Positions 23,054-38,257 of a DNA stretch of 64,000 nt are shown piece by piece (position 1 is the stretch's first letter; each line of letters opens with the position of its first letter). The translations under genes were made by a program, and so were the position numbers. The notes under the pieces were generated by a model. The model was not told the origin of the DNA. It saw only the letters and a program-made list of their open reading frames with translations, and made no database searches. This stretch comes from Deltaproteobacteria bacterium (GTDB lineage: Bacteria > Desulfobacterota > Desulfomonilia > Desulfomonilales > Desulfomonilaceae), in NCBI GenBank assembly GCA_021777225.1, contig JAJYDQ010000001.1, forward strand, positions 1 through 64,000, given 5' to 3'.

Positions 23054-23431
23054 TGGCTACTCCTTGTATATAAGACCCAAAAATAATCAGAGATTCTCAA
23101 ATTGTGACCCAGCTTCAGGGATTTTGATTCTAAATCCCCAGTGTTATGTAAGGTCATCAGGCCACCGCTGTCAAGCAAGACAAAAATAAAGTTTATCAAC
23201 TGTCGATCAATTGAGCTTTGGCGCTACAAACCGACAAAATTTTCATGAGAGAAATTGACCGGGTTAAATGAAAAACATATGGTATAGTAAAAATCCGGTG
23301 GTGATATCATCTGATTAAAAAACCGAACTCAAGGGATGGACAATATTACAGGTTGACAAAACGCTAACAGCACAAATCCTTGACTTTAAAATGTCGGGTC
23401 AAGACCCCGTCGAAAAGGTTTGGAGACCAAA
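23054..23431. promoter_or_regulatory. 378-bp divergent promoter region
   Basis: Between the divergent phosphatase and CoA-transferase genes. Features: an AT-rich segment around 23180-23310 with TATAGT, and TTGACA and TTGACT hexamers at about 23353 and 23382. CTTGAC and GTCAAG form a small inverted repeat near 23381-23404, close to the downstream start. No coding potential is seen. Confidence 0.35.
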
Positions 23432-25318
23432 ATGTCTGATTGGAAGCAGAGGTATGCCAACAAATTAGTAAGTGTTCACGAAGCGGCCTCTCATGTTAAA
23501 AACGGCGATCGAATTTACTTGGGGAGCATGTGTTCAGAGCCCAGGACAATCATAGAAGCCTTGGGAAATTCCCGAGTTGAAGACGTTGAAATCGTCCAAT
23601 TTATCAGGGGTGATTACGCTACTAATCTGGCCGCCAAGATCCCCGGGAGATTCGTCATCAAATCTTTTTCTGTCGGTGGTCGTACAGGTGAAGAGGAAAG
23701 ACCTTCAGTAGCGGATTACGTGCCACTTTTCCATGCTCACATACCGAATTTTTTCAGAAACAGACGAATTGCTATCGATGTTGCGATAATTCAGGTTACG
23801 CCGCCTGACAGATTCGGAAGATTCAGTCTTGGAATATCAGTTGACGCCACAAAATCCGCAGTTGAATCGGCACGTATTGTCATAGCTCAAGTTAACACCA
23901 GGATGCCTCGAACCTGTGGGGACACATCAATAATGATAGATGAAATTGATTATCTGGTGGAGGCTGACGAAGATTTGTTTGAATTGCCCCAGGAAGAACT
24001 GGGCGAACGAGAGAGGACCATAAGTTACTATTGTGGAGAACTTATTGATGATGGATCAATACTTCAATTCGGTTTCGCAGGGATCTCACAAGGATTGATG
24101 GACCATTTGAAAGACCGTCGCAACCTTGGTCTTCATACGGAAATTCTGACAGAATTTCTTGTTGATCTCATAGAATGTGGGGCTGTCAATAATAGCACGA
24201 AGAAAATGTACAGGGGGAAATCGCTTGCGACTTGTTGCATGGGAACAAGGCGTCTCTATGATTTTGTCGATAACAACTCAATGGTTGAACTCTATACCAG
24301 TGATGTAGTCCTAAACCCTTTATTTATTGCGGCAAATGACAAAGTAGTAGCCGTAAATCTAGCGTTGCAGGTAGATTTGAGGGGTCAAATCAGACAGGGC
24401 AATCCAACATGGACGGCATTTGAAGGGTCCGGAGGTGACCATGATTTTATGTTGGGAGCCGGCATGTCAAAGGGAGGACGTTCCATTATTTGTCTGAGGT
24501 CCACGTCTATAAAGAGTGGTCGCTCTACAATAGTGCCTTCTTTTGGCCCTAAAGCAGCGGTGATAATGAATCGTGGAGAAGTAAATTACATAGTTACGGA
24601 ATACGGTATAGCCTATTTAGGTGGTAGGACAATCCGGGAGAGGGCCATGGCTCTAATTGAGGTCGCTCATCCTGATCATCGTGAGAACCTCATGAAACAG
24701 GCTCGAGAAATGGGATATATCTATCCAGACCAGATTTATTACAAGAGCGTTTCTCCGGAATTAAGACAAAGAATCAGAACAGACCATGTTTTCAGGGATG
24801 GCCTAAAATGTCATATTCGCGCCGTTAGACCGACAGATGAAACTATGCTGAGAGACTTGTTTTATAATTTGTCCGAGAGTTCAATTTATTTTAGATATTT
24901 CAGTCCGAAACGCACCATGCCTCATAAAAATCTTCAAACATACGTCAACCTCAAAGAAGATGAAGGTGTTTCAATAGTGGTGACGACTGGCCCCCGCGAA
25001 AAACGTAAAATGATTGCTGAAGCCAGATATATGATTGAGCCCGGCGAAGGATTCGCTGATTCCGCATTTATGGTGGACGAGAATTATCAGGGTCGCGGCA
25101 TTGCGTCATATCTACTAAATTATTTGATTGAAATAGCCAAAGAAAGAGACTTGAAAGGATTTAAGGCCGATGTGTTGTTTTCGAATCAGCCAATGCTAAA
25201 AGTCTATGAAAAGGTCCCCTATAAGCTACACAAGCGTTTTGCGGACGGAGTTGTCAGCCTAAGTTTTCGATTTGATGAGTTCAAAGATGAAGAGCAAAAC
25301 AAGGGTCCGGTGGAGTAA
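23432..25318 (+). CDS. CoA-transferase/acetyl-CoA hydrolase fused to a GNAT acetyltransferase
   Basis: 628 residues from ATG 23432 (GGAG seven bases upstream). Residues 1 to about 440 are a 4-hydroxybutyrate CoA-transferase/acetyl-CoA hydrolase module, with the LHTEILTEF segment containing the probable catalytic Glu and TEYGIAYLGGRTIRERA near its end. Residues about 455-620 are a GNAT N-acetyltransferase domain (LKCHIRAVRPTDE, VDENYQGRGIASYLLNYLIE). The fusion is seen in other anaerobes to my knowledge; the GNAT part may acetylate proteins using the same acyl-CoA pool. It is followed 64 bp later by an HD gene. Confidence 0.88.
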   Translation: MSDWKQRYANKLVSVHEAASHVKNGDRIYLGSMCSEPRTIIEALGNSRVEDVEIVQFIRGDYATNLAAKIPGRFVIKSFSVGGRTGEEERPSVADYVPLFHAHIPNFFRNRRIAIDVAIIQVTPPDRFGRFSLGISVDATKSAVESARIVIAQVNTRMPRTCGDTSIMIDEIDYLVEADEDLFELPQEELGERERTISYYCGELIDDGSILQFGFAGISQGLMDHLKDRRNLGLHTEILTEFLVDLIECGAVNNSTKKMYRGKSLATCCMGTRRLYDFVDNNSMVELYTSDVVLNPLFIAANDKVVAVNLALQVDLRGQIRQGNPTWTAFEGSGGDHDFMLGAGMSKGGRSIICLRSTSIKSGRSTIVPSFGPKAAVIMNRGEVNYIVTEYGIAYLGGRTIRERAMALIEVAHPDHRENLMKQAREMGYIYPDQIYYKSVSPELRQRIRTDHVFRDGLKCHIRAVRPTDETMLRDLFYNLSESSIYFRYFSPKRTMPHKNLQTYVNLKEDEGVSIVVTTGPREKRKMIAEARYMIEPGEGFADSAFMVDENYQGRGIASYLLNYLIEIAKERDLKGFKADVLFSNQPMLKVYEKVPYKLHKRFADGVVSLSFRFDEFKDEEQNKGPVE

Positions 25319-27765: not shown

Positions 27766-28188
27766 ATGGGACACAGGGACGATTGTATTTTTTGCAAAAT
27801 TGTCAAAGGAGAAATCCCTTGTATCAAAATTTATGAAGATGAAAAAGCTTTGGCGTTTATGGACATAGCTCCATTAAACGAGGGACACGTCTTGATAGTT
27901 CCAAAAAACCATTACGAGACCATCCTGAACATTGAACCCGAGGTATTCGGATGGTTGGGGAATGTTGCGGCTAAAGTCTGCAAAGCTGTTCAAAAAACCC
28001 TAAAGCCTGATGGAATAAATGTTATGCAATTGAACGGTAAGGCCGCAAATCAGGTCGTTCCTCATTTACACATTCATATAGTCCCGAGAAATTTTGGAGA
28101 CGGCCTGTCTATTTGCGCGTGGGACCCTATTCCTGGGTCTATGGATCAGATAAAATCTACGGCTGAGGCCATCAGGAAAAATGTCTAA
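27766..28188 (+). CDS. HIT family nucleotide hydrolase (HinT-like)
   Basis: 140 residues. The N terminus has a CIFCKIVKGEIPC motif typical of Hint proteins, and the histidine triad appears as HLHIHIVPR near residue 100. Hint proteins hydrolyse AMP-lysine, adenosine 5'-phosphoramidates and acyl-AMP adducts. AAGGAGG lies about nine bases before the start. It is 50 bp after cysK and 29 bp before the CDP-alcohol phosphotransferase fusion, probably one operon. Confidence 0.94.
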   Translation: MGHRDDCIFCKIVKGEIPCIKIYEDEKALAFMDIAPLNEGHVLIVPKNHYETILNIEPEVFGWLGNVAAKVCKAVQKTLKPDGINVMQLNGKAANQVVPHLHIHIVPRNFGDGLSICAWDPIPGSMDQIKSTAEAIRKNV

Positions 28189-28217: not shown

Positions 28218-29837
28218 ATGTCCACTGCTAACCAGAAAAATGAAGTTAGTTTTAAAGCTCAACCTCAGTCTGATTTCTTCAACTATTTTGGCAAAGACAG
28301 ATGGATCCAAACGTGGCTTGCTGAGAAGAGAACTCGATTAACGTCAGTCATTTTCCCTCCTCTCGAAAAAATTGGCCTGGCGCCGGATACAATTTCTTAC
28401 ATTGGTATTGCCCTGCTTGCAGGAGTTATTCTCTATTTTGTTCGAAAACCGTGGTTAGCTACTATCTTTTTGCTTGGGCACGTGTTTTTTGATGGTCTTG
28501 ATGGCGCCTATGCCCGCAACGCGGGTAGGGCTTCTCAATCCGGAGCATTCACAGATCTTGTATGCGATCAATTTGGAATGGTAGTAGTGTCCATGCTGGC
28601 CATATTCCACCATTTGGTGGAACCCCTGATAGGGGCGGCGTACATAAGTCTGTACCTAATTGTAGTAGTCTTTGGAGTGATCATTAACGTAATGGGAATT
28701 GGTTCCAGGATCACTATTACCAGCAAATACTTTCTCTATATGGTTTACGGCCTGTGGGCTTTTAGCGGAGTTAATCATTTTTCTTTCCTGATGACCTTTT
28801 TTTCATGCGTAATGGCAATTGAAGTTTTGGTCGGATATGTTCGTCTAAAAGCCGGCATAAGAAAGAAATTCGATTCTGAAGAACGTTTCAGTGTAGGAGA
28901 CACATATTCCGGGCCGGTAAATTACATTTTAAACATAACAATTCCATTATTAACATTGATAGCAATCCTTATCTATGGAAACTGGGTCCCATTGAGGACT
29001 ATCATGGATAAGCCCAACACCGTGCTCAACTGGGAGGAGGGGCGCCCAATTCCCTTTCCTGAGGACAATTCAAGACTTTTGTCTTTTGGGGTATGGAATA
29101 ACAAGTGGCTAGCGCTTTTCGAAAACGGAAACGGGACCAAAGAAATAAGGGTTATAAATCCTGACGGTTCATTTAATGGAGAGAACTTTGAGGCTCCATC
29201 CTATATCCAGCCTGCTTGCGAAGAATTGCCTGTTGATGGGGACACCTTGCTCATAGCGGATAACACCACGAGGCTGGTCATGGGAATCGATCTTAAAGCT
29301 TCTCTGGCTGCAAAAAAGACCGTGATAACACTTACACTTCCATTCGGGTATTTACGAATGACCGCTATAGCGACCACCCGCTGGAACAATAAGACTGTAT
29401 GGCTAATCGCCAACTATCTTTATACCCGTAAAACTTACGTCATTGACCCGGACATAGCCCTTAAAAAGGGCTCTGTTTTAGGTGGAGTAATAGCGTCATA
29501 CACAAATGGGGGTTTCCCGTCAGGTCTGGTAGTATCAAATGGCGAAGTCATAGAACTCAATAAATCACCATTCAATTCACTAATCTATACGGCTCAATTT
29601 GATAGAATGTTGCAAGGGGCAAATCTGCTCAAGGCTACTCGGAAGAAAATCGCGCCACCGGAAAAGGAAGTGTTAGGACTTAGTATATCAAATGCCGACA
29701 TAATTCTGGTATCAGAGCAGGGAAGAACTTTTCATGCGCCACTGAAAAGGGTTTTAGGAAAGAATTTACTCGAATACGACATTCATCATTCCTTTTTAAC
29801 CAAATCCGAAGTTGTAAAGAATACGTTTTCACACTAA
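28218..29837 (+). CDS. CDP-alcohol phosphotransferase with an unusual C-terminal domain
   Basis: 539 residues. Residues about 40-235 contain the full CDP-alcohol phosphotransferase motif: Asp92, Asp95-Gly96, Ala99-Arg100, Gly109, Asp113 and Asp117, in a polytopic membrane region with further helices to about residue 265. Residues about 270-539 are soluble, with repeated beta-rich stretches (for example RLLSFGVWNNKWLALF, TLLIADNTTRLVMGID, KTVWLIANYLYTRKTYVIDPD), resembling beta-propeller blades but not a family I can name. It probably transfers a phosphoalcohol onto a lipid or polyol, with the extra domain outside the membrane. lepA starts 70 bp downstream. Confidence 0.8.
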   Translation: MSTANQKNEVSFKAQPQSDFFNYFGKDRWIQTWLAEKRTRLTSVIFPPLEKIGLAPDTISYIGIALLAGVILYFVRKPWLATIFLLGHVFFDGLDGAYARNAGRASQSGAFTDLVCDQFGMVVVSMLAIFHHLVEPLIGAAYISLYLIVVVFGVIINVMGIGSRITITSKYFLYMVYGLWAFSGVNHFSFLMTFFSCVMAIEVLVGYVRLKAGIRKKFDSEERFSVGDTYSGPVNYILNITIPLLTLIAILIYGNWVPLRTIMDKPNTVLNWEEGRPIPFPEDNSRLLSFGVWNNKWLALFENGNGTKEIRVINPDGSFNGENFEAPSYIQPACEELPVDGDTLLIADNTTRLVMGIDLKASLAAKKTVITLTLPFGYLRMTAIATTRWNNKTVWLIANYLYTRKTYVIDPDIALKKGSVLGGVIASYTNGGFPSGLVVSNGEVIELNKSPFNSLIYTAQFDRMLQGANLLKATRKKIAPPEKEVLGLSISNADIILVSEQGRTFHAPLKRVLGKNLLEYDIHHSFLTKSEVVKNTFSH

Positions 29838-29907: not shown

Positions 29908-31707
29908 ATGGATAAAATTAGAAACTTTTGTATCATAGCTCATATTGATCATGGAAAATCGACATTGGCTGATCGGTTGCTCCAGATTACGGGAGTAGTC
30001 GGGGATCACAACTTTCATGACCAAATGCTCGACACGATGGACATTGAACGGGAACGCGGGATAACAATTAAAAACCAGTCGGTAGCGTTACCTTACACGT
30101 CTTCTGATGGTTTTAATTACACACTCAATTTAATAGATACACCAGGTCACGCTGATTTTTCGTACGAGGTTTCTCGAGCCCTCGTCGCCTGTGAAGGAGC
30201 GCTATTGGTCATAGACGCCAGCCATGGTGTTCAGGCGCAAACTCTGGCCAATTTTTACATGGCGGTTGAACAGGACCTTGAGATTATACCACTTATAAAC
30301 AAGATTGATTTGCCAGCCGCGGACATTGATAGAGTCAAGGGGCAGATTTCCAAGGATTTAGGGTTAGACCCGGATTCGGCAATTCTCGTTTCCGCAAAAG
30401 AGGGCACAGGTGTCAAGGAAGTTCTTGAAGCCATCGTGCACAAGATACCGGCCCCAAGAGGTGACCCAAATTTACCCCTAAAGGCTCTCATTTTTGATTC
30501 ACATTGGGACTCATATACAGGAACCGTTGTTCATATCCGGATATTTGACGGCACAATAAGACCCGGTCAAACCATAAGACTTTGGGCAATAAACGCTAAT
30601 TACAAAGTTGAAGAAACGGGAATTTTCCTGATTGAGCGAAAACGTGAAAAGCAATTATCAGCAGGACAGGTAGGCTACATAATCGCGGGCATCAAAACTG
30701 TTAGCGACACGAGAATAGGTGATACCGTAACTCTTGAAGACAATCCATGCGAAGCGCCTTTAAAAGGGTTTAAAATTGTAAAGCCGGTCGTGTTTTCTTC
30801 ATTTTATCCCATTTCATCCGATGATTATCAGGAACTTTTCGAGGCCCTGGAAAAACTGAAATTGAATGACGCTTCCCTAACCTATGAAAAGGACCATTCA
30901 ACTGCGCTGGGCCATGGTTTTAGATGTGGATTCCTTGGATTATTACATCTTGAAGTGGTTCAGGAGCGGCTCGAAAGAGAGTTTAATCTTTCTTTAATCC
31001 TAACGGCTCCCTCGGTTCAATATATAATAGTCTATAAAAACGGATCGGAAGAAATAATAGATAATCCGGCCAAATATCCAGACCCTGTCGCGATTGAAGA
31101 CGCCAAAGAACCCTTTATAAGGGCTTCAATAATCTTACCTGAACAATATCTGGGGACAGTAATCAGTCTGTGTATAGATCGAAGAGGTATTCAAAAGGAC
31201 ATGACCTATTTAGACTCCGGCCGGGTGGAGCTTACTTTTGATTTACCGTTAGCGGAAGTCCTTTTCGATTTTTATGACAAGCTGAAATCAGTTTCTCGTG
31301 GATACGCGTCATTCGATTACGAATTTCTCGATTATCGGCCTACTGAACTGGCGAAAGTTGACATTATGGTGGCTGGCGAAAGAGTAGACGCCTTGTCCAT
31401 GTTGGTGCACAAGGAACGTGCTTATCAACGTGCCCGAAAAGCTTGTGAAAGACTGAAAGATGAAATTCCGCGTCAACTCTTTAAGGTTGCTATTCAAGGA
31501 GCGATAGGGGGTAAGATAATCGCCAGAGAGACGGTTTCCGCTCTTAGAAAGGATGTTTTGGCGAAGTGCTACGGTGGGGATATAACACGTAAGAAAAAAC
31601 TGCTGGAAAAACAAAAAGAGGGCAAGAAAAGAATGAAACAGGTTGGTAACGTTGTTATTCCTCAGTCAGCGTTTCTTGCCGTGTTAAAGACCGATACCGA
31701 TGAATAG
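29908..31707 (+). CDS. lepA: Translation factor LepA (EF4)
   Basis: 599 residues, standard length. GTPase motifs: [16 protein letters not shown] (G1), [21 protein letters not shown] (G3), NKIDLP (G4). The LepA-specific C-terminal domain ends near [19 protein letters not shown]. It is a ribosomal GTPase that remodels stalled or mis-translocated ribosomes. The ATG has GGAG about seven bases upstream. It marks the right edge of the conserved block; the disrupted region begins directly downstream. Confidence 0.97.
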
Positions 31708-31713
31708 GAGTAA

Positions 31714-32413
31714 TTGAAATTTGACGAAACCTGGTTACCAGAACTCAAAATGGGAGCCATATTTGATCAATCTGAGGCGGCCATGCTGAAATCGGAACTC
31801 GAGCAAATCATAGCCAACGGAGAGAATTCCGGAGTTGAATTCAAGCGGGACGATTGCCGACCCGAACAACTGGCCAGAGAAATCGTGGCTATGGTCAATC
31901 TCAATGGCAGGCCGCTGGAAAAAAGCTGGAGATGAAGTCAGGCGATTAATAACCCCTGGTGTCATCGAAGATTTCCTGCGAATAATACGTCCTTATATTA
32001 GTGAAGAAACAGGAGTCATTGAAGATCAGTTAAGACGTGACAGGATTTGGCATTATCCGGTGGAAGCAGTGCGTGAAGTAATAGTAAACGCTCTCGCCCA
32101 CCGCGATTGGACTCGATCCGTCGATATCGAAGTGTCTGTTTATTCCGACCGGTTAGAGGTGATTAGTCCTGGGGCGCTTCAGAACTCCATGACTGTGGAA
32201 AAAATGATAGCCGGCCAACGGGCGCCCCGGAATCCGTTAATAGTAGAAGTTCTAAGAGATTATGGGTATGTAGACGCTCGTGGAATGGGAATCAGGACCA
32301 AGGTGATACCGCTGATGCGGAGACAAAATCGAACAGAGCCACTCTTCGAAGCCACGAATGATTTCCTCAAAACGACCTTGTTCAGAGGTCCAACCAAGCC
32401 ATCAGAGTCATGA
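31714..32413 (+). pseudogene. Broken AlbA_2/GHKL ATPase-type transcription regulator
   Basis: Two fragments of a Schlafen AlbA_2 (divergent AAA-4) protein. The first gives ELEQIIANGENSGVEFKRDD and AREIVAMVNLNG, the start of the AlbA_2 domain; the second, in another frame, gives the C-terminal ATPase half (VREVIVNALAHRDWTRSVDIEV, DYGYVDARGMGIRTKVIP). Roughly 200 middle residues are missing and the frame changes at a run of six A near 31919-31924, where removing one A restores GRPLEKAGDEVRRLITP. Codons after the stop near 32413 look coding in another frame up to about 32535, hinting at a further shift. Intact relatives are DNA-binding regulators or defence/TA-associated proteins. Confidence 0.75.
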
Positions 32414-32959: not shown

Positions 32960-35900
32960 TCAGCGTAGAACCGGCAGTGTACTCAGTTGGGTTTGGATCT
33001 CCATTGCCACTGAATTTTGAATGCCAGCGAGCAGGGCTAGGAGTTTCTTGAAGGCAACAAGTGCTTCGGGCTGCCGTTGTATCCTTTGATAATGCATTTG
33101 AGAGGATATTCCCAACAAAGAAGCCAAATTCGCCACGACATGCTTATCGTCCAATAAAGAGGCTCGTGCGCTAATGGCCCTTTCAAGTTGAATGAGGCCA
33201 TCCGGGAGCAACTGTCCAGCGGCAAGTTGCTTGAGGAAGGCAGCAAAACAGGCAAAACTTTTACTTCTCTCTAAGTGGTGCTGCCCCCATTTCTGGTAAA
33301 AGCTTTGCATTTTACCTACGCAGGATTCTTGGCCTTTACTCCACAATGTCACGAGGCTATCTTCAAATCCCATCAGGCAGCACCACAGAGCCTCTACGTC
33401 ATACCCTTTCCGAGGCTGTATGAAGCTCCAGCCTTGGGCATCGAAGGCGTGGTCTATCATTGCGCGCCATTGGCTCAGGAATGCTTCTTCTGGGAGACCT
33501 GAATCAAAGTACCTGAGGAACCAGGATTTCAGAAAGCAATCGATCCAGTAGTGTGCATCGACACCCAAATCCAAGATGGGAGACCACATGGTAGATGGAT
33601 TCTCTTCCGAGTTCATACTGCAGATAACTGCCGGTAATCGATCAAGGAACCAGTGGTCCCATGCAGAGGGCATTCCTTCACCAAATTGGTGTGGTTCGAG
33701 TCTTCTGTGAATAGCTTCCATCGTGTAATTGAGGGCTTCTCGCCAAAAAAGTAGCCATTCGGTTCGTTCGTCCGGATCACTGGCCTTATCCAAAGCCGGA
33801 AGCCACGAGTAGGCAGCATGGACGAGATCTTCATTCAATGTGCCTCCACCACGACCGGGCTCTCTTGTAGCCGACAATCGTACTGCGATTTTTCCCATCC
33901 AACTCTTCGGTTTCTTGAGACTTATCCAGGATGGTACACGGGGCCCAAGCGCACCTTTGACGAAAGTGTTCCATTCTCGGCGCACTGCAGATTTGAAATC
34001 GATAGGTAAAACCTCACCCTTTTCGCCGAGTGAATAGCGATTTCCAGCAACTGCGAGTTTCATGATGAAATGCTGAAGTCTTTGAAAATCCGAGCCGAGG
34101 CAATGGCGGATTTGAGACGCAGAGGTCATGAGGATTTCAACTACACCGTGGATGTTACTCGAAGCGAGGACGGCAACACACTCCCTAAGACATGGAGACC
34201 TAAGGTCCTCAGCCCACAAAATAGGGACGACCTCCGCAGAGAAACCTTCCCATGAACGATTCACTGATTTGAAGGTTTCTAAAGACTGAGATCCAGATTC
34301 TGGTTGTCGCAAGATCGTGTGGACAATTTGTTCTCGACACCATTGGTCTCGGTCAGGAAATTGATTTAGCCAATCCCGATGATGCTTGAGCAATACTGCG
34401 GCCCCGCCGCAGATCAAGTCTTCACTACTTGGGGCAGCAAGATAATCTTCTACAGAAGCCATTTCTGGTATGGTCGTCAGCATGGACCAGAATTCGTCGA
34501 TTTCTTCGGGATGGAGTCGGCCTTGACCATCCAGTAGTCTCCTACACCGCCAGGGAAATACATTGAGGGAAATGGTCCTCGTCAGGTCAGGAAATCCCTC
34601 CTCGGCCTTGGAGCGCAGATCTGCCGGCGGTTGGTATTGCAAAATCGCTCGGCCTTCGAGATTCTTTGATGGGAGCCAATTGGCAGGATCAAATTGAGCG
34701 ACGAGGTTTTCGATAAAATCTCCAACGCGGGGACAGAAATCGCTTCGGTCCAATCGATCTTTCCATTCAGTGCGAATCCGGCGACAAAAGTCGTTCGTTT
34801 CTGGGCTAAAAAGAAATATCTTCTGAGCAAGATCGACTAGATCAAGTTGCCGATGCGCCATCGAATGCCATCCTCTGGCCATCTCAATTTGCCATGGAGC
34901 GTGCGGCAAAGTCATCCACCCGATCATCGTATAATCTTCTCCGTCAACATTGTGACGTTTCGTCCATTCGTAGAATTCAGGCACTGAGAGCAAAGGCAGC
35001 AATTGTCTTGCGAACAATTCGGGCTGCTTCTTGCCCACTTCACAGAGGACCCCCGCGAGAGCGACCGACGTCGAGTTTTTCAGTATAAATTCGGCGTAAT
35101 CGTCTATTGGCTGTTTGGCTTCCAATCTATCATAAAGCCACCGCTCAAACGCCATCAACGCGATCACAATTATATTTGGAGCTGTCGCCGATTCACGGAA
35201 CCAGTAAAATACATGTTCGTCGCCTCTCAGAATGCGAGAGCCTTCCATTGTCTGCATTGAAACGGATTCGATTCCATCGATTTTGTGACTATTACGTTCA
35301 GTCCATCGGTCAGTCGCATGATTTACGAGCAGCACCAACGCTCTCAGAGCTTCGTATGGTCGCAATGTGAGAAATGAAAGAAACGGACCGTCAGTGTAAA
35401 AAGGTGGAAATGAAGTTACTTTAGGGTCTAGGCCACAGATTATATTGGGATCAAAGGTCCATTCAGAGGTCCGCCGCAGCTCCCGCAATACATCTTTCTC
35501 CTCAATGAGGAAAGACAAAATGGTCTCGGCCGCAACATCAGGTGCGGATGCAATAAGAGGTAGCAGCACGTTGGGTTTCAGACAAACCACCCTGAAAGTA
35601 TCGTCCGCCAGATATTGGCGTCCGTCTGGCCAAGACTCAACCTGTTCCGAAACAAGCGCCTCACTAGGATCTGTGAATCCAATCTCTCGACGCTTGTGCT
35701 CTGCTGAAGCTTCCTCGCTCTGCCGGTTCCATTCGCCAAGCTGAGTTCTGTGCCATTTTATTCGTTCAACAATATGTCCTTCTGGCTGTTTTCTGCCGCA
35801 GGCAGTCAAAATAAAATCTCGGGCGCGCTCGGGTAATTCGGCATAGGCGGCAATGGCAGCCCGATAGAATGGCTCTGACAACTCTTTGGATACCCCTCGG

Positions 35901-38257
35901 ACTGTCCAAGAACTCAGTGAAAACGCGAGCCACTCTTCTGCTCCCGCAAGAGCTAGATCTGCGGCTACAGTTCGAGCTTCTGAACCCGGAAGGGTGGATC
36001 GCAGCCACATATCACAAATTCGAACTACTCCGGCAGGAGCCAGCCGAATCACCTCGTTTTTGTGATCACTGAGAAAAGTCAAGACGGCTGGCCATAGTTG
36101 CAGAATAGGGACTCTACATTCCGCAGCAAATCTCAACCGAATCTCTGGGGTTTTATTTGCTGTTGCAGCCAGCATAGTCAGATCAGGAGAAGTCGCGACT
36201 TGTAAGAATTGCCCTAAGAAACGCCATAGGAGCCGCCCTTTGTCTTCGACTAACGTTTCCCACAGGTTTTCTAAAATTGCATCCGGATTGCTGGCGAATA
36301 TTATTGTCTCCAAAAGCAGGTTCTGGCCTAATTCAGAATTGTTCTCCGCCAATTGGCTCAATATATCCAACCACTGTCGCTGATCTTTCTTAAGTTCCAG
36401 GAGATGTAAGCCAAAAAGACGTACTGCACGGCACCAAGGTGGCGATAACAGTTTCTTAGGGAGAAATTCTGAAAGTTGGTGTGAGCGACTCAGTAAAACT
36501 CTCTGCCTTGACCAGTCGCCAAAAAGATCGTGATCGAAAGCAATCTTTTCGTCCTCAATTGCGCAAATTCTATCCTTTTTCAACGTTTCGAAGATTATGA
36601 GATCATCACTGGTGAATTCGCAAGTCCCTGTCTCATATTGCATCGTATCGGCTTGATTCTCACCAAGTCTTTGTAGCAAAAAGGATCTGGCAGGCCCATT
36701 TGCGCCGTTGTTCACCTCGGCCGACCAAAACCATTCGATCAGATCAGATTCTCCCACCCATTCCTGAGTGTCCGGAACTCTTTTTGCTGCAATATTTGTG
36801 GCAAAGAGATCCAAAATTTTTGGCTTCAGAAGCATATCGGCCAGACGCTTCTCCGATGATAGCCGCTGAAGAGAAGGAAATGCATCCCAAACTGCATCCA
36901 ACTGCTCAATAGCGGGATGGTCGATGTTCAATAAAGAAGGTCTCGATAATAATCCTCCAAGTCTTATCAATGCAAGTTGAACTCGACCCCATTCTTCCCG
37001 TTGACACGTCAGAACTAGCCTCCACGGACTATTTGTTTCTTCTAGTCGGAGCCATCTAGAAACTTCTGCAAGGTTGGCGAACTCACCTTCCTCGGACAAA
37101 TGATCAAGTCCATCGATCACAAAGTAAGCAAGCTCACGGCTAGCGGCCGGAATGACTTCATCCAACTCGTAATTGAATCTGAGTGTACCCACAGCCGTGG
37201 TTGAAAACTGTCCCGTCTTCAACTTATTAGCGGACCAAAAAACCAGAGTATGAAGGGAAGATTTTTGTTCGGCCCATTTTTTGACGATGACAGACTTGCC
37301 GCATCCAGATGGCCCCACCACTGCGCAGACAGGATGCTGCTCTATTGCACGTTCAAGGTTATTCTCCTCGAGCTGCCGATCAAATTCGACGTGTCCACCA
37401 ATATTAGCCCGGATAGAATTCAAGGTCCTCTGTGTGTCGGACGACAACTTTTTCCAGTCAGCTTCGTACGCTGGGTATTCCTTGAGTGGAAAACTATTTC
37501 TCAAGAAGCCAAGAAGGTGAGGGAGGTCAAGAAAACCCGCTTGCGGCCTATCCTGACTAGCAATAGAGCACAGCCGCCACCAAAGATCTTGAGCCTCATC
37601 AACAGACCCGCTGCGAAGTATCTCAGTGCATATCTGAATGTCGGATTGCAATTGTTCAGAAGGATCCGATTCAAAATCAAAGAACAGGACTCTTACCGAG
37701 CGCAAAACTCTCACGGTATCCTCCGGGCCAACACAAGAAGCATTGCGCAAGTCTTCCGGGCAGCTAAAGGAATTAAAGAGGGAGCGTACGAGGTCAGTGG
37801 CAAACCCCTTTTTTCTTAGCCTTTCGGGAAGGTCGTGAGGATCCTGTTTGCGGGCCCACTTGAGCAATGTGCTAACCCCCCTTTTCAGGTCCGACGATCC
37901 CGATGCCGTTGCCAGAACAAGCAAATCGTTACGTAGATCAAAAGGACTGCCACGGAGATACTGTTGCCAGGCTAACTGAACAAAATCTTTATCAAAACCG
38001 TTTTTCGTGATGTGTTCGCCGCTTTTTATGGAAACAGCGGCTCTTCTCTGAACTTGACTACTGATCATGGTAAGAAGCAGGTCATCAAGCAGCCACCCGT
38101 CAGACCTAACTTGGAATCCGATACGGGTGAGGGTGCCAGCCCCGGACTCGAATGGAAGACGATTCCTAAGGAAATAACAAATGAAGTGGGCGGTGACTTG
38201 GTCTTCAAATGAAAAACCGCCGCCGCCCGTGGACTTTGGCGGGGCAACATGTCCCAT
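32960..38257 (-). CDS. Giant STAND/NACHT-like P-loop protein, candidate anti-phage defence
   Basis: 1765 residues, one continuous frame. The N-terminal ~200 residues begin GGGGFSFEDQVTAHF and contain WLLDDLL (Asp58/59) and VSIKSG (Lys78), a pattern like a PD-(D/E)xK nuclease or a related sensing domain. A P-loop NTPase follows: Walker A VGPSGCGKSV (residues 314-323) and Walker B YFVIDGLDHL (378-387). About 1100 residues of helical, repeat-like sequence complete the chain. This layout (effector, STAND NTPase, long sensor) is that of Avs-type defence proteins, but I cannot assign a subtype. It lies alone in an island full of pseudogenes; the ATG has GAGAGG five bases upstream. Confidence 0.7.
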   Translation of the reverse strand: MGHVAPPKSTGGGGFSFEDQVTAHFICYFLRNRLPFESGAGTLTRIGFQVRSDGWLLDDLLLTMISSQVQRRAAVSIKSGEHITKNGFDKDFVQLAWQQYLRGSPFDLRNDLLVLATASGSSDLKRGVSTLLKWARKQDPHDLPERLRKKGFATDLVRSLFNSFSCPEDLRNASCVGPEDTVRVLRSVRVLFFDFESDPSEQLQSDIQICTEILRSGSVDEAQDLWWRLCSIASQDRPQAGFLDLPHLLGFLRNSFPLKEYPAYEADWKKLSSDTQRTLNSIRANIGGHVEFDRQLEENNLERAIEQHPVCAVVGPSGCGKSVIVKKWAEQKSSLHTLVFWSANKLKTGQFSTTAVGTLRFNYELDEVIPAASRELAYFVIDGLDHLSEEGEFANLAEVSRWLRLEETNSPWRLVLTCQREEWGRVQLALIRLGGLLSRPSLLNIDHPAIEQLDAVWDAFPSLQRLSSEKRLADMLLKPKILDLFATNIAAKRVPDTQEWVGESDLIEWFWSAEVNNGANGPARSFLLQRLGENQADTMQYETGTCEFTSDDLIIFETLKKDRICAIEDEKIAFDHDLFGDWSRQRVLLSRSHQLSEFLPKKLLSPPWCRAVRLFGLHLLELKKDQRQWLDILSQLAENNSELGQNLLLETIIFASNPDAILENLWETLVEDKGRLLWRFLGQFLQVATSPDLTMLAATANKTPEIRLRFAAECRVPILQLWPAVLTFLSDHKNEVIRLAPAGVVRICDMWLRSTLPGSEARTVAADLALAGAEEWLAFSLSSWTVRGVSKELSEPFYRAAIAAYAELPERARDFILTACGRKQPEGHIVERIKWHRTQLGEWNRQSEEASAEHKRREIGFTDPSEALVSEQVESWPDGRQYLADDTFRVVCLKPNVLLPLIASAPDVAAETILSFLIEEKDVLRELRRTSEWTFDPNIICGLDPKVTSFPPFYTDGPFLSFLTLRPYEALRALVLLVNHATDRWTERNSHKIDGIESVSMQTMEGSRILRGDEHVFYWFRESATAPNIIVIALMAFERWLYDRLEAKQPIDDYAEFILKNSTSVALAGVLCEVGKKQPELFARQLLPLLSVPEFYEWTKRHNVDGEDYTMIGWMTLPHAPWQIEMARGWHSMAHRQLDLVDLAQKIFLFSPETNDFCRRIRTEWKDRLDRSDFCPRVGDFIENLVAQFDPANWLPSKNLEGRAILQYQPPADLRSKAEEGFPDLTRTISLNVFPWRCRRLLDGQGRLHPEEIDEFWSMLTTIPEMASVEDYLAAPSSEDLICGGAAVLLKHHRDWLNQFPDRDQWCREQIVHTILRQPESGSQSLETFKSVNRSWEGFSAEVVPILWAEDLRSPCLRECVAVLASSNIHGVVEILMTSASQIRHCLGSDFQRLQHFIMKLAVAGNRYSLGEKGEVLPIDFKSAVRREWNTFVKGALGPRVPSWISLKKPKSWMGKIAVRLSATREPGRGGGTLNEDLVHAAYSWLPALDKASDPDERTEWLLFWREALNYTMEAIHRRLEPHQFGEGMPSAWDHWFLDRLPAVICSMNSEENPSTMWSPILDLGVDAHYWIDCFLKSWFLRYFDSGLPEEAFLSQWRAMIDHAFDAQGWSFIQPRKGYDVEALWCCLMGFEDSLVTLWSKGQESCVGKMQSFYQKWGQHHLERSKSFACFAAFLKQLAAGQLLPDGLIQLERAISARASLLDDKHVVANLASLLGISSQMHYQRIQRQPEALVAFKKLLALLAGIQNSVAMEIQTQLSTLPVLR

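Follow-up and report, generated by a model that had tools for sequence, protein, structure and literature searches.

The window, by which we mean the whole 64,000-nucleotide stretch of contig JAJYDQ010000001.1 that was analysed, holds an open reading frame whose product joins a CDP-alcohol phosphotransferase (CDP-AP), a predicted seventh transmembrane helix (TM7) and a propeller-like domain in a single chain (Table 1). The neighbours of this gene at its own locus are queC, a PALP cysteine-synthase-like gene, a HIT-family gene and lepA, and they give no hint of envelope work.

Table 1. The fusion gene, its parts and its immediate neighbours, in window coordinates.
Feature	Position	Strand	Basis
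539-aa fusion protein: CDP-AP membrane enzyme, TM7 and propeller-like domain	28218..29837	+	ORF open over 539 codons; homologues
CDP-AP domain, residues 1-225, six predicted helices	28218..28892	+	Pfam PF01066, E=4.3e-10; hydropathy; low-confidence model
CDP-AP signature motif, residues 92-117	28491..28568	+	Sequence; motif residues invariant in 12/12
Q118, directly 3′ of the fourth motif Asp (position of the acceptor-binding Arg in PIP synthases)	28569..28571	+	Alignment; PMC6506517
Seventh TM helix, residues 235-255, after basic loop 208-236	28920..28982	+	Hydropathy peak; K/R count
Propeller-like domain, residues 263-515, predicted periplasmic	29004..29762	+	hhalign; strands and Foldseek on low-confidence model
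Unconstrained tail, residues 516-539	29763..29834	+	dN/dS; missing or divergent in most homologues
HIT-family (HinT-like) gene, directly upstream	27766..28188	+	Pfam HIT, 2.4e-28; upstream in 11/12 fusion genomes
lepA, directly downstream	29908..31707	+	Downstream in 11/11 fusion genomes where the contig continues

Three other features of the window were recorded. A 1765-aa protein (32960-38257, minus strand) matches the PADLOC Avs4 model over residues 270-770 (E 2.4e-19), together with weak STAND/AAA NTPase matches, and is a candidate antiphage STAND protein. Downstream of lepA (31714-32413, plus strand) a 73-aa ORF is followed, in another frame, by a 192-aa HATPase_c_4 (RecG-like C-terminal) ORF; together they look like what is left of a longer protein, and an ORF similar to the HATPase_c_4 one also comes after lepA in another genome of the family (G002). 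Lastly, an acetyl-CoA hydrolase/transferase at 23390-25315 (plus strand) has a GNAT acetyltransferase domain fused to its C-terminus.

The first-pass annotation of this DNA had read the gene as a complete CDP-alcohol phosphotransferase motif followed by a domain that is not part of the standard enzyme, and both halves of that reading hold. The signature D92-x2-D95-G96-x2-A99-R100-x8-G109-x3-D113-x3-D117 is complete, all of its residues are invariant in the 12 fusion proteins, and residues 55-178 match Pfam CDP-OH_P_transf (PF01066) at 40.6 bits against a cut-off of 22 (E=4.3e-10). The C-terminal part is conserved in the homologues and matches no Pfam or NCBIfam family above cut-off; Pfam likewise recognises none in any of the 12 homologues. 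A known domain already described with CDP-APs, an outcome that the annotation had allowed for, was thus not encountered above cut-off in either collection. What the annotation overlooked is a seventh hydrophobic segment (~235-255) between the enzyme and the C-terminal part. The conserved C-terminal domain itself stops near residue 515, and the last 24 residues look unconstrained.

Among 99 genomes searched, the full-length protein is present in 12 of the 18 genomes of the family (its own included), at 48-93% identity over nearly the whole length, and in all eight family genomes with a completeness of at least 94%. A sequencing error, or the chance joining of two genes, is therefore excluded. 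The same domain order, which the annotation had proposed to look for in other genomes, accordingly recurs across the family, and with the HIT gene and lepA flanking the full-length frame at the frequencies given in Table 1, the claim of a genuine and conserved fusion between hinT and lepA stands. The six family assemblies without the fusion are all 82-86% complete. In G002 the contig breaks between hinT and lepA, in G007 and G016 lepA has different neighbours, a hinT orthologue is present in G017, and in G005 and G015 the lepA and hinT matches are weak only and presumably paralogous. The gene block is broken in genus g5, to which two genomes belong: in G017 the cysteine-synthase-like gene and hinT are kept and the fusion is absent, and in G010 the fusion lies by lepA without hinT.

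Nei-Gojobori estimates of dN/dS for the C-terminal domain were 0.07 and 0.12 in two unsaturated comparisons (the third was saturated), with 0.03-0.07 for the enzyme part and 0.30-0.92 for the last 24 codons. The low values for the C-terminal domain point to purifying selection on it, and by this measure both halves of the fusion are under such selection. The propeller nonetheless evolves faster than the enzyme half, with a mean column identity of 63% versus 74%.

A profile of the C-terminal domain matched in 6 of 395 genomes of the phylum, five of them from its own family and the sixth being G054. No relative was found on viral contigs, and plasmids contained no match for the fusion or for the stand-alone propeller of genome G368 that is described below. 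A single-protein search of a genome contig collection, which reaches close relatives only, returned four close relatives of the fusion, labelled Syntrophaceae, Deltaproteobacteria (two) and uncultured Desulfomonile, all of them metagenome-assembled genomes (MAGs); from such labels of fusion-bearing MAGs we infer that the family is Desulfomonilaceae-like. In the open-access literature we found no description of a CDP-AP fused to a propeller and no HIT/PgsA1 operon, and the pairing is conserved and, apparently, undescribed.

Structure prediction of the C-terminal domain, a check that the annotation had asked for, gave a strand-rich and propeller-like reading, albeit at low confidence. The full-length model reached a pLDDT of 37, too low to be of use for a structure search. 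In the model of the domain alone (pLDDT 52, pTM 0.47) the strands can be read as five four-stranded blades. Profile self-comparison of the domain gave no significant internal repeat; the five-blade count is therefore a reading and not a result, and the annotation's description of this part as repetitive is not borne out at the sequence level. A Foldseek search with the low-confidence domain model (pLDDT 52) places NHL, BamB, designed propellers, WD40 and glutaminyl cyclase among its top rows (E from 4e-5), the glutaminyl cyclases of Zymomonas and Xanthomonas being in the list, and VIA-align of the same model agrees with propellers (Z up to 10.9, many of the alignments being partial). The domain may have a beta-propeller-like fold, as this low-confidence model suggests.

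Sequence profiles lead to a more specific relationship. The C-terminal-domain profile matched a fragment in G054 (E 3.9e-8), through which an intact 312-aa relative was reached in G368. This protein has an N-terminal hydrophobic anchor of its own and passes Pfam Glu_cyclase_2 (8.7e-7; 29.1 bits versus 22.3). Comparison of the fused domain with it by hhalign gave 97.1% (E 6e-11) over 233-234 columns. The reversed control gave 0.5%, 50 shuffles gave at most 4.4%, and the ORFs of 11 loci with other Glu_cyclase-like or weak hits gave at most 3.8%. The C-terminal domain is, on these profile comparisons, specifically homologous to a propeller-like protein with a TM anchor from another family of the Desulfobacterota. 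It follows that the fusion would have joined the enzyme to a protein of that kind. The TM helix of the propeller protein was probably included in the event, and its being brought along with the propeller would explain the seventh helix. In both the G368 protein and the fusion a hydrophobic anchor precedes the ~234 columns of the homologous domain; however, the former is encoded by a stand-alone gene and passes Glu_cyclase_2 (PF05096), whereas the fused domain matches that family in none of the 12 members. Likewise, the type I glutaminyl cyclases, which are five-bladed propellers according to PMC3986218, share the probable fold class with the fused domain but no family-level sequence match. It is conceivable that the propeller has an enzymatic activity of its own in the periplasm, such as a glutaminyl-cyclase-like or lyase-like one, and is coupled to the transferase only by co-localisation, as the Glu_cyclase_2 match of its closest stand-alone relative and the two glutaminyl cyclases in the Foldseek list of the low-confidence model would suggest. 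We consider this improbable, given that the fused domain matches no such family and that the other Glu_cyclase-like or weak-hit proteins of the phylum have no profile similarity to it.

The placement of the propeller depends on the seventh helix. Mean hydropathy over the 12 rows resolves the membrane segments of the enzyme part, whose helices also appear in the full-length model of pLDDT 37, and a separate peak centred at position 243. Helix 235-255 of the window protein has 21 residues, none of them charged, and the loop before it (208-236) holds 5-8 K/R in all 12 fusion proteins. In PMC6506517 the cavity of six-TM CDP-APs opens on the cytoplasmic side, and in PMC8633023 both termini of MjPSS, an enzyme of eight helices, are cytoplasmic. 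A seventh TM helix should therefore export whatever comes after it and, by the positive-inside rule, residues ~263-515 likely lie in the periplasm. The topology is based on hydropathy and charge, which leaves some room for a TM7 that does not cross the membrane and a cytoplasmic propeller that acts on a soluble substrate. This we regard as very improbable in view of the 21 uncharged residues behind a K/R-rich loop in 12/12 proteins; moreover, the stand-alone relative has, as judged by eye, its own N-terminal basic stretch and hydrophobic anchor.

The relatives of the propeller lie among genes of surface polysaccharides. A GT2-GtrA gene follows the propeller gene of G368 in the same orientation, and RmlD-like and Polysacc_synt_2 genes lie further on; the surroundings of the broken copy in G054 include genes for ABC2_membrane, Wzt_C, NeuB, a cytidylyltransferase and a sulfatase. 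The suggestion of the first-pass annotation that the extra domain might recognise a surface polymer gains from these loci and from the likely periplasmic placement behind TM7, but the support is circumstantial and comes from two loci. In G054 (contig C28, ~27.5-28.3 kb; L017/L035) the relative is interrupted by a change of frame and several stops, repeated fragments that look transposase-like by eye surround it, and a CDP-AP gene adjoins it, PgsA-like by tree and with a very long branch. In G368 a distance of 4.4 kb, which includes an ORF that is transposase-like by eye, separates the propeller gene from the CDP-AP gene on the opposite strand, and their linkage may be accidental. Of the 41 genomes from the order of G368, one has the propeller, six have a strong match to the enzyme and two a weak one. 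The propeller is therefore no general requirement of the enzyme and the two form no fixed pair. A recurrent pairing of propeller and enzyme, of the Rosetta-stone kind that G368 offered, is weakened by these counts and by the PgsA-like nature of the neighbouring CDP-AP in G054.

The head groups of most phospholipids are determined by CDP-alcohol phosphotransferases, enzymes whose acceptor can usually not be read from sequence. Here the best match among solved structures is to the PIP synthase structures of MtPgsA1/PIPS (E=3e-8 by sequence, 7e-8 with a profile), which shares the signature motif and the core membrane region with the fusion (MtPgsA1 6h53/6h59/6h5a; PIPS fusion 6wm5). The fusion differs from it in a Gln for the acceptor-binding Arg, in a deleted acceptor block and in its extra TM7 and propeller-like domain. 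According to PMC6506517, the Arg after the fourth motif Asp (R94 of MtPgsA1) is part of the wall of the inositol-phosphate pocket, and M. tuberculosis PgsA1 with Gln in its place has almost no activity left. The residue at this position is Gln in all 12 fusions and in the G368 relative, versus Arg or Lys in 31 of 36 other CDP-APs, a set of hits from earlier searches that pass a motif filter and not a random sample. The remaining five (DN in three, DS and DV in one each) also have neither, so the feature is not unique. Moreover, in an alignment with eight other CDP-APs and the G368 relative, the S-Y-x-x-A-R-A-E block (TM4-TM5) is deleted and a later E-R pair is missing; R164 and K170 are still present. 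The CDP-AP row set was cleared of loci that duplicate the fusion or G054/G368, and L103, the same gene as L025, was left out of this motif alignment and of the tree that placed the G054 CDP-AP. By alignment, most of the inositol-phosphate pocket is missing from the enzyme half and, with the Gln after the fourth Asp, this indicates that the enzyme is probably not a PIP synthase.

That the protein is an ordinary PIP (or archaetidylinositol-phosphate-like) synthase with an accessory domain would fit its best curated and structural matches, but the curated models score far below their cut-offs (NF040950, 50.5 versus 180 bits; NF045883, 42.1 versus 170 bits). The invariant Gln, the deleted block and the lost E-R pair all speak against it, and so does a separate PIPS-like gene in the same genome, adjoining an inositol-phosphate-synthase-like gene (names by eye). 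We hold this explanation to be quite unlikely. The genome contains two further CDP-APs besides, one PgsA-like and one PssA-like, the latter with neighbours that look by eye like decarboxylase and leuA genes. The fusion is therefore a fourth CDP-AP, different in kind and, as far as sequence can tell, not a housekeeping enzyme. As for the new lipid or glycan that the annotation proposed, the missing pocket and the presence of other genes for PgsA-, PssA- and PIPS-like enzymes make a non-housekeeping product plausible and no more than that.

The enzyme half is placed by phylogeny in a distinct CDP-AP subfamily. In the tree, 20 rows form one group (100/100) in which the 12 fusions are one clade (99/98), and the two f108/f109 members are their nearest kin (96/91), at a point where the program warns that long branches meet. 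Left out of this tree were L103 and, as distant or long branches, L035, L050, L051, L030 and L020. The stand-alone members (families f82, f108 and f109) thus belong to the same subfamily as the fusion but are without TM7 or propeller. After the fourth Asp they have Gln in 6/6 f82 proteins, and Ile and Thr in the other two. In seven of eight, a PHP-superfamily protein, a putative phosphoesterase, adjoins the enzyme in the same orientation, namely in five of the six f82 members and in G454 and G451; the exception, G447, has an ORF in the PHP position that is transposase-like by eye. The G454 protein matches PHP_C (1.6e-10), an f82 protein matches the CehA/McbA type below cut-off (2.8e-6), and the D-x-H-x-H, H, E, P-H-P and G-S-D-x-H positions are invariant in seven rows. 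Searches with the PHP protein gave matches of 3.9e-131 to 4.6e-86 in G368, G454 and G451, weak and partial ones in all 12 fusion genomes (best E per genome 1.6e-10 to 9.1e-6), and none in G447, which is 61% complete. The same-strand CDP-AP/PHP tandem is seen in three families of the phylum, at L087:11246-12778, L118, L119, L121, L122, L123:1486-3173 and L117:1396-3176, and may constitute a separate lipid pathway of two genes.

Extra domains on CDP-APs are already known, as in the AF2299 entries; new here are the domain order, the predicted outward-facing domain and the unusual subfamily. In the AF2299-type fused enzyme (4o6m) the matched CDP-AP is C-terminal (residues 193-274 of 372) and the additional part N-terminal, whereas in our fusion the additional domain is C-terminal and predicted to be periplasmic. 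The N-terminal part of 4o6m we take to be a cytoplasmic cytidylyltransferase-like domain.

Taken together, these data bring us to a tentative reading, for which we would allow somewhat less than an even chance, that the protein is a two-sided envelope enzyme: it would transfer to a non-inositol-phosphate acceptor at the cytoplasmic face and bind its product or a partner by means of a periplasmic propeller. Residues 1-225 would act as a class I CDP-alcohol phosphotransferase on the cytoplasmic face, the four motif aspartates holding two metal ions, and would move a phosphatidyl (or other CDP-linked phosphoryl) group to an alcohol acceptor, probably not inositol phosphate. TM7 would carry the propeller-like domain, whose origin would be a membrane-anchored propeller protein of the periplasm, across the membrane. 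There the propeller would most likely bind the product head group, or a glycan or protein partner, and this binding would tie lipid synthesis to lipid use in the envelope. In this scheme we infer topology, activity, acceptor, ligand and coupling alike.

The same TM7 topology would serve a propeller that is a sensor or scaffold, binding a signal or a partner protein of the envelope and controlling the activity or the location of the transferase with no contact to the lipid product. A regulatory addition of this kind would be expected to be missing from the stand-alone enzyme relatives, as it is, and to vary faster than the enzyme half, as the column identities indicate. However, the conserved block contains no two-component or other signalling partner, and invariant polar residues of the propeller domain, such as N399, R404, E446 and N448, could equally be a ligand site. 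We therefore rate a sensor or scaffold as rather unlikely, though a serious competitor to the two-sided envelope enzyme.

A wider proposal, which we put forward as doubtful, is that a new Desulfobacterota CDP-AP subfamily makes a new phospholipid with an acceptor that is not inositol phosphate, that this product would be processed by the PHP protein in the cytoplasm in most lineages, and that in Desulfomonilaceae-like bacteria the flipped product would be captured by the fused periplasmic propeller. On this proposal a single protein would connect the making of the lipid inside with the assembly of the envelope outside. A subfamily that lacks the known inositol-phosphate pocket and is tied to a phosphoesterase or to an outward-facing domain is a lead to a new bacterial lipid, and the fusion would give a rare handle on how a lipid enzyme of the cytoplasmic face connects to the periplasm.
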